Below are positions 30,448 through 32,282 of a stretch of DNA of 64,000 nt, in pieces. The stretch lies in contig BAOK01000001.1 of NCBI GenBank assembly GCA_000509225.1, positions 1,302,001 through 1,366,000 on the forward strand, in the 5' to 3' direction. A program made the translations under genes and the position numbers. Each line of letters begins with the position of its first letter. Within the stretch, counting starts at the first letter, position 1. Under the pieces are notes generated by a model. It was not told the DNA's origin, searched no databases, and saw only the letters and a program-made list of their open reading frames with translations. The stretch is from Parvibaculaceae bacterium Mf 1.05b.01 (GTDB taxonomy: Bacteria > Pseudomonadota > Alphaproteobacteria > Parvibaculales > Parvibaculaceae).

Positions 30448-30639
30448 GTAAGTGCTCCTGCCCTGTTGATTTCCGATGGGGCACTAAGTGCCTATCCGGA
30501 TAGCCAATTTCAATAGTTGGCAAACCCTACCCAATCTTGAGAGGCAATCACACACCCCACACGTGCATTTGATAACCTGCTGATCTGCAGAAACATCCCG
30601 CATAGCGGGGTGTCTTGAGGATGGAGGTTTATCGTGGGT

Positions 30640-30681
30640 GGGAAAATGGTCGGCGGTGACGGGATCGAACCGCCGACCCTC
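30640..30681. repeat. Left copy of 42-base direct repeat (candidate attachment site)
   Basis: Matches 32200-32241 at 41 of 42 bases; the only difference is C at 30651 against G at 32211. The block covers the T-arm, the 3' acceptor strand, CCA and 7 bases past it. Similarity continues at a lower level to about 30700. Confidence 0.8.
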
Positions 30682-30728
30682 CTGGCGGAAACAAGGTGTT
30701 TTCTCCGCGAATTCAAACAACACCGCCA
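30647..30728 (-). pseudogene. Degenerate tRNA-Val-like sequence
   Basis: On the minus strand this can be folded almost as a tRNA. The acceptor TGGCGGT pairs with ACCGCCG (one T-G pair). The T-arm matches tRNA-Val, and loop TTTCCGC would give anticodon TCC. Several things argue against function: three bases between acceptor and D-stem, a 13-base D-loop, and a C-A mismatch at the top of the anticodon stem. The 3' half matches tRNA-Val almost exactly while the 5' half has drifted and is about 6 bases longer. Confidence 0.6.
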
Positions 30729-30789
30729 AACTTCTGACAAAAAGACGGTTTTACCATGCGGCTCACCAGATCTTAGGAGATAGCCGAGT

Positions 30790-32106
30790 ATGGAATTTGC
30801 CACAAAAGCGGATGCGGAAGCATACAATCCAACCACTGCGCCCGATTTTCTTAGTATTGCCGGTTATACGGCGGCGGGCGACCTTGGAGGGGCGCTGTAC
30901 AAAAAAGTTGCTGCAGCGCCAGCACATGTTGGCAAGTTACAGATCGCCGAAGGATCATGGTATGAAATCGCAGAGGCAGAGTTGGACAGTCGTATGGTTG
31001 GACTCCCTCTCTTCGCCAGCAACGCGGCAAGTGCGTTTGAAGACTTCCTAATCGCCGCAACTACTCTTGATGTACCGGCGATTGTTGGTGACGGACAGAT
31101 TTACGACTTTCCGACAGGAACGGTGTCACTCCCCAGCAACTTGGTCTTGCGCATGATAGGGGCGGTTTTGCGAAGAACGACGGACGTGCTGATTCCACTA
31201 TTTGAAAGCTCTTCGACGAACAACATCGTTCTTATAGGCGGTACTTTTTCCAACACCCGTCCACCCACAGCTCCGTCAATTACGAATAACACGGCGCTTT
31301 TCCTTAATGGTTCAAGTAACGTTCGCGTCACTGACATACGTGTCGAAGGAGCGTTTTATGTTGGGGTCTATTTCAGAGATTGTTTGAACGCGTCCTGCGA
31401 AAACACTCAAGTATTTGGCGTTGTAAACCGGGCGTGCTACGTGGCAGCTGCGACCTACACCGAGAATATTAGCGTCAGCGATTGTCTATTCGACGGCTAC
31501 GAGCTTGGAACAACAAACCGGCTGACGAACCACATCGTCAACACCAATGCTTTTGGTACCGGGAGCGGCAGAAACATTACCTTTACAAACTGTACTTCCC
31601 GACACGGGTCAACCAACCCAACGGGCGAAGGATTCGGCTTTAGTGACCGCATCACAGATCAGAGAGCTGTTAATTGTTTTGCATACGACTGCCCAACCGG
31701 CTTCACGCTTCAGGAGGCGAATGGTAATCCGGTTTTACGGGTTCAACTTGTCAATTGCTCATCTGAGAACTGTTCAAACAACGGCTACTTCGCTACCGGG
31801 GCTAACATTTTCTCGATTGTAGGTTCGAGAGCTACGGGTTGTGGAACCGGTTTCAACATTCTGAATAGCTTTAATTTTACAATAGCGTCTTGCATCGCAG
31901 AGAATTGCACAGCAGGTGGTTTTTCTTACGATGGAAACACTTCTGTTGGCGTTATTTCAGGCAACCTTGCCACTGTGAATGTTGGAACCGGATTTTACTC
32001 CGCTAACACAGCATCCTATCTGAATGCCAAGGGCAACATCGCGGTTAGCAATACCACTAGCTACATATGGAATGCATTCGCGAGCGACACAACCGGCAAC
32101 ATATAG
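30790..32106 (+). CDS. Phage tailspike-like right-handed beta-helix protein
   Basis: A 438-residue protein. The N-terminus (FATKADAEAY...IAGYTAAGDLGGALYKKV...WYEIAE, residues 3-65) resembles a head-binding or linker domain I know from phage tailspikes and other pectate-lyase-like phage proteins. Residues 90-430 are short repeated strands with Asn/Cys turns (NVRVTDIRVEG, NISVSDCLFDG, NITFTNCTS, VQLVNCSSENC, FTIASCIAENC), a parallel beta-helix ladder. No signal peptide is visible, consistent with a virion-type rather than a secreted protein. An AGGAGA ribosome site lies 9 bases before the ATG. No other phage gene is nearby. Enzyme activity, if any, cannot be told. Confidence 0.75.
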   Translation: MEFATKADAEAYNPTTAPDFLSIAGYTAAGDLGGALYKKVAAAPAHVGKLQIAEGSWYEIAEAELDSRMVGLPLFASNAASAFEDFLIAATTLDVPAIVGDGQIYDFPTGTVSLPSNLVLRMIGAVLRRTTDVLIPLFESSSTNNIVLIGGTFSNTRPPTAPSITNNTALFLNGSSNVRVTDIRVEGAFYVGVYFRDCLNASCENTQVFGVVNRACYVAAATYTENISVSDCLFDGYELGTTNRLTNHIVNTNAFGTGSGRNITFTNCTSRHGSTNPTGEGFGFSDRITDQRAVNCFAYDCPTGFTLQEANGNPVLRVQLVNCSSENCSNNGYFATGANIFSIVGSRATGCGTGFNILNSFNFTIASCIAENCTAGGFSYDGNTSVGVISGNLATVNVGTGFYSANTASYLNAKGNIAVSNTTSYIWNAFASDTTGNI

Positions 32107-32199
32107 AACTCTGAACACCGACGCTTCCACACCCTATGGTATGAGGGCATTCGTTCCCGACGCCCGATGTGGAATCGCAACAAATTAGGGGACATTGAA

Positions 32200-32241
32200 G
32201 GGAAAATGGTGGGCGGTGACGGGATCGAACCGCCGACCCTC
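32200..32241. repeat. Right copy of 42-base direct repeat (within tRNA-Val)
   Basis: Partner of 30640-30681. It contains the 3' part of tRNA-Val from the variable loop to CCA and 7 bases of downstream flank, so an insertion here would leave the tRNA whole. Confidence 0.8.
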
Positions 32242-32282
32242 TCGGTGTAAACGAGATGCTCTCCCAGCTGAGCTAACCGCCC
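32207..32282 (-). tRNA. tRNA-Val (TAC)
   Basis: A complete minus-strand cloverleaf. Acceptor GGGCGGT pairs with ACCGCCC, the D-arm is GCTC/GAGC, and the anticodon stem TCTCG/CGAGA holds loop TTTACAC with anticodon TAC. T-loop TTCGATC and an encoded CCA at 32207-32209 complete it. In relatives I recall this tRNA next to tRNA-Asp between hupB and nuoA; here 5.5 kb separates the two. Confidence 0.95.

Follow-up and report, generated by a model that had tools for sequence, protein, structure and literature searches.

The window, a stretch of 64,000 nucleotides from the genome of Parvibaculaceae bacterium Mf 1.05b.01, contains a single tailspike-like gene held between two near-identical copies of the 3' end of tRNA-Val. 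Very probably, a temperate phage inserted at tRNA-Val(TAC), after which almost all that lay between its attachment (att) copies was deleted. As phage scars go, the unit is of an ordinary kind, but it is unusually small and cleanly bracketed. It provides a clean and roughly dated example of near-complete prophage decay, in which the att copies have outlasted all but a fragment of a tail gene. Such minimal "tRNA cassettes" may mimic cargo-only mobile units while being scars. Moreover, the locus marks tRNA-Val as a recurrent site of phage integration in this alphaproteobacterial family.

Structure of the insertion

A direct repeat of 42 bases was found by repeat search and direct count at 30640-30681 and 32200-32241, with 41 of 42 positions the same and 1560 bases from start to start. 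An intact tRNA-Val gene (anticodon TAC) occupies 32207-32282 on the reverse strand; it is the one tRNA-Val(TAC) that ARAGORN calls, with no tRNA called at the left copy. The right, tRNA-side copy is composed of the 3' part of this tRNA plus 7 bases of flank, and the 3' end of the tRNA is oriented into the insert. Among the open reading frames between the two copies there is one gene only, at 30790-32106 on the forward strand and encoding 438 aa, and no integrase lies inside. ARAGORN and the reading frames thus agree with the initial annotation, which had described an inward-pointing tRNA 3' end with one gene and no integrase inside; its repeat geometry (42 bases, 41 identical, 1,560 apart) was likewise recovered. 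A possible ribosome-binding site, AGGAG, can be read at 30775-30779 before the ATG at 30790. Promoter and terminator consensus scans gave scores within about one standard deviation of chance. The G+C content of the insert is 49.5%, compared with 54-55% in the 10 kb on each side.

The repeat copies are not a product of chance, because a 39-base repeat pattern allowing up to 3 mismatches matched only these two places in the whole genome, with no third copy, and the reversed pattern used as a control gave zero matches. The intact tRNA-Val, all 76 nt of which are shared by five congeners (100% identity), is the attachment target whose 3' end was regenerated by the incoming element. The left copy is the displaced 3' end of the host tRNA-Val, in which the one substitution falls in the acceptor stem. 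Inward of the repeat, similarity fades to 84% over 69 nt when 30640-30708 is aligned to 32200-32268; the inner continuation of the distal copy (30682-30708) is partly tRNA-like and may represent an attP arm derived from the element.

Empty sites in related genomes

Two congeners, G003 and G001, have the same gene order as the window: hupB, a transporter, a regulator, a hydrolase, tRNA-Val, a glutathione-transferase-like gene, and nuoA. In both, about 200 bp separate tRNA-Val from the next gene, there is one tRNA-Val, and no insert is present. The right flank of the window aligns to G003 at 98% identity through the tRNA. The host left flank (30501-30639) aligns at 79% through the left copy and onto the same tRNA, and at 77% in G001. 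The inner 1.49 kb of the insert has no match in G003. The unit is therefore an insertion relative to these congeners, whose flanks are joined across one tRNA-Val in two empty sites, as the proposal of a site-specific insertion at the tRNA-Val 3' end in the initial annotation had anticipated.

Integration into the 3' end of a tRNA leaves a regenerated target at one end of the element and a displaced fragment at the other (PMC4383910). The displaced copy here differs at 1 of 42 positions (95% interval 0.06-12.6%), whereas fourfold-degenerate sites in two flanking genes are 46-50% different between this genome and G003. Because of this disparity, the insertion is younger than the split from G003, unless gene conversion kept the repeat copies alike.

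Comparison of the hupB-nuoA interval, which the initial annotation had recommended, also revealed a different insert at tRNA-Val in a third congener, G002. This insert, about 2.6 kb long (L022:7964-10663), lies between tRNA-Val and the same left neighbor, and no distal att copy is left. It encodes a 151-aa endolysin-like protein (phrog_894, 7.8e-07), a small ORF of 59 aa, and a membrane-like protein of 318 aa. The same interval in G004 (L024:1355-3887) holds genes for an acyl-CoA dehydrogenase and an APH-type phosphotransferase; these genes are not phage-like, and the insert was set aside.

The enclosed beta-helix gene

The 438-aa protein matches the right-handed beta-helix family of Pfam (PF13229, 4.9e-10) and has the body of a parallel beta-helix. 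The third-position G+C of its gene is 0.50, against 0.57-0.66 in six neighboring genes. Residues 3-71 match tail proteins of the Rhizobium phages RHph_TM3_3_14B and RHph_N28_2 at 50-52% identity, and over residues 25-74 there is about 50% identity with the tail spike of Caulobacter phage Sansa. A tailspike-like beta-helix gene, as the initial annotation had named it, is thus supported both by Pfam and by the phage proteins against which it had suggested searching. The matched segment forms a linker, which in the phage relatives reads GDxGGALYxKV; the remainder of the protein is beta-helix.

A four-row profile of the segment at aa 3-71 was used to search for this linker more widely. The profile matched 70 viral contigs but, among the 385 genomes of the class, the window's own alone. 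In genome contigs the linker occurred at at least 6 loci, all alphaproteobacterial among the matches listed. The neighbors of three of these loci were scanned: tape-measure, tail-fibre or lysis genes stand beside the gene in L129 and L133, and the third locus, L132, gave weak virion-protein matches only. The gene is of phage origin, because the linker is present in 70 viral contigs and is otherwise absent among the 385 class genomes.

The window protein differs from these relatives at its start. Among the 59 viral relatives whose 5' end is complete, the linker has a median of 174 residues ahead of it, and only 1 of the 59 has 20 or fewer. Residues 1-170 of the RHph_TM3_3_14B protein, which lie before the linker, match tail-fibre N-terminal families. 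The ORF in the window begins at the linker, with no N-terminal virion-anchoring region of the tailspike kind, and an in-frame TAG at 30781-30783 stands only 6 bases ahead of the ATG. The protein is also short: its 438 aa compare with a median of 785 aa for the viral proteins. The gene is thus the body of a tailspike that lacks what its phage relatives carry upstream, and the missing region was probably the virion anchor. No obvious signal peptide is seen when the 438-aa sequence is read directly. A cell-surface role for the gene as it stands is unlikely, because it has neither an obvious signal peptide nor an N-terminal region like that of the phage relatives. What remains is probably without function, or yields at most a chance intracellular product.

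Other searches added little to this picture. Close full-length relatives of the gene were absent from viral contigs, genome contigs, plasmids, and the 385 class genomes, and no parent prophage with the same full-length gene and att site was found in viral or genome contigs. The protein had no meaningful match in a PDB sequence search and nothing in NCBIfam. A single-sequence AlphaFold model was uninformative as to fold (mean pLDDT 34.6) and was not used. A DNA-level search with the cassette in phages returned only tRNA-Val genes or unannotated short matches.

tRNA-Val as a phage integration site

When viral contigs were scanned for the tRNA-Val 3' sequence, one contig was returned, IMGVR_UViG_2791355011 (L040, L041), with a length of 46 kb. 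At one of its ends a tyrosine integrase comes after an intact tRNA-Val(TAC); the other end carries a tail protein, an endolysin, and a second copy of the tRNA-Val 3' end, about 42 kb from the first. This distal copy is degenerate at its 5' side, yet ARAGORN calls it as a tRNA-Val. The late genes of the contig read toward the distal copy, whereas the gene in the window reads away from its own.

Four genomes of the family, G019, G016, G036, and G029 (L047-L050), have relatives of the integrase of this tRNA-Val(TAC) prophage next to their tRNA-Val(GAC), which implies that one integrase family uses different tRNA-Val isoacceptors. The IMG/VR prophage, the integrases at tRNA-Val(GAC), and the endolysin-like insert of G002 together establish tRNA-Val as a used phage site, at which phage-like remnants have been left more than once in the genus.

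Origin of the insertion

The absence of the phage N-terminal region from the gene, the endolysin-like gene in G002, and the occurrence of prophages at tRNA-Val(TAC) all favor a prophage remnant. The original element was presumably a complete prophage, and its present small size would be the result of deletion, not of delivery in trans. Recently, and in this lineage, site-specific recombination would have brought a temperate phage into the 3' end of tRNA-Val(TAC); the tRNA would have been regenerated and the original 3' end pushed out to its present place at 30640-30681. Deletion would later have removed nearly all of the prophage, the integrase and the 5' part of the tailspike gene among it, while sparing both att copies and the linker and beta-helix body of the tailspike. 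Any excision would now need an integrase from a later phage at the same site. Some observations stand against this reading: the ORF is unbroken, with a plausible ribosome-binding site ahead of it, the viral and genome contigs yielded no parent prophage with the full-length gene, and the one viral relative in 59 mentioned above also begins close to the linker. The orientation of the gene, unlike that of the IMG/VR late genes, implies either that the genes of the parent stood in a different order or that deletion happened more than once.

The initial annotation had offered two alternatives, the last remnant of a deleted prophage and a cargo-only unit moved in trans. The former has been strengthened by the truncated N-terminus, the endolysin-like gene of G002, and the tRNA-Val(TAC) prophages, and the latter has been weakened, since neither a matching integrase nor a second copy was found. 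As a cargo-only unit, the insert would be a small circle of attP and one gene, for which a helper phage or island would provide, in trans, the integrase for both integration and excision. The good preservation of both att copies (41/42), the presence of exactly one intact ORF, and the recency of the insertion relative to the congeners would suit such a unit; the genome also encodes other tyrosine integrases and carries three phage-terminase-like genes, and a helper could have existed in the past. However, the cassette turned up nowhere else among plasmids, viral contigs, genome contigs, or the 385 genomes of the class. Of the four tyrosine recombinases in this genome, two are Xer-like as judged by sequence and neighbors; of the two non-Xer integrases, one is beside tRNA-Phe and one is without a nearby tRNA. 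The search for an integrase at tRNA-Val(TAC), which the initial annotation had proposed, found none in this genome, nor was any of its recombinases related to the integrase of the tRNA-Val(TAC) prophage at E 1e-10; a serine recombinase of the PF07508 type was also absent from it. A gene without the phage N-terminal region or an obvious signal peptide would, in addition, make poor cargo. Delivery of a cargo-only unit is therefore quite unlikely. Its more specific form is very unlikely, namely a single-gene tRNA-Val cassette that a phage integrase moves in trans and whose beta-helix protein, free and unanchored, would serve after release by lysis as a soluble competitor or as a surface-polysaccharide enzyme.

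Origins outside phages fit the data less readily. CIMEs are decayed ICEs or IMEs that keep attL and attR and have lost the genes for integration and transfer (PMC5704250), and the layout of the insert, with both att sites kept and such genes gone, fits a satellite or a decayed non-phage integrative element of this sort that acquired a tailspike gene. Nothing conjugative is present, however, and in the searches made, genes like the sole remaining one came up in phages and prophages only, so that this origin has a very low probability. An old tandem duplication of tRNA-Val with a host gene between the copies is hardly credible: the left copy is indeed weakly tRNA-like beyond the 42 bases, but near-identity of the copies is confined to the tRNA 3' end, relatives lack the gene, which is phage-like, and the single tRNA-Val without insert in the congeners rules this origin out.

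Relation to known elements

The prophage remnant proposed here resembles the cryptic, or defective, prophage remnants found at tRNAs in its att direct repeats at the tRNA 3' end, its phage-derived gene, the absence of an integrase, and the empty site in relatives. It differs from them in its reduction to about 1.5 kb and one truncated structural gene despite the survival of both att copies. With CIMEs (PMC5704250) it shares the two retained att copies, the loss of recombination and transfer genes, and the possibility of re-mobilization by an element at the same site. It is not to be filed among them, because it appears to derive from a phage and not from an ICE or IME. The genomic islands collected in Islander (PMC4383910) likewise have a regenerated tRNA and a displaced fragment as their two ends; the window unit, with no integrase gene between tRNA and fragment, would fail the Islander filter. 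In the tailspikes of RHph_TM3_3_14B, RHph_N28_2, and Sansa, the GDxGGALYxKV linker is followed by beta-helix-like sequence as in the window protein, which is distinguished from them by its shorter length and missing N-terminal region.

The same genome has another candidate phage-like region. A large-terminase gene and the tyrosine integrase beside tRNA-Phe lie about 31 kb apart at G000:C2:2252144-2284033 (L126, L044), which suggests a prophage or phage-like island.
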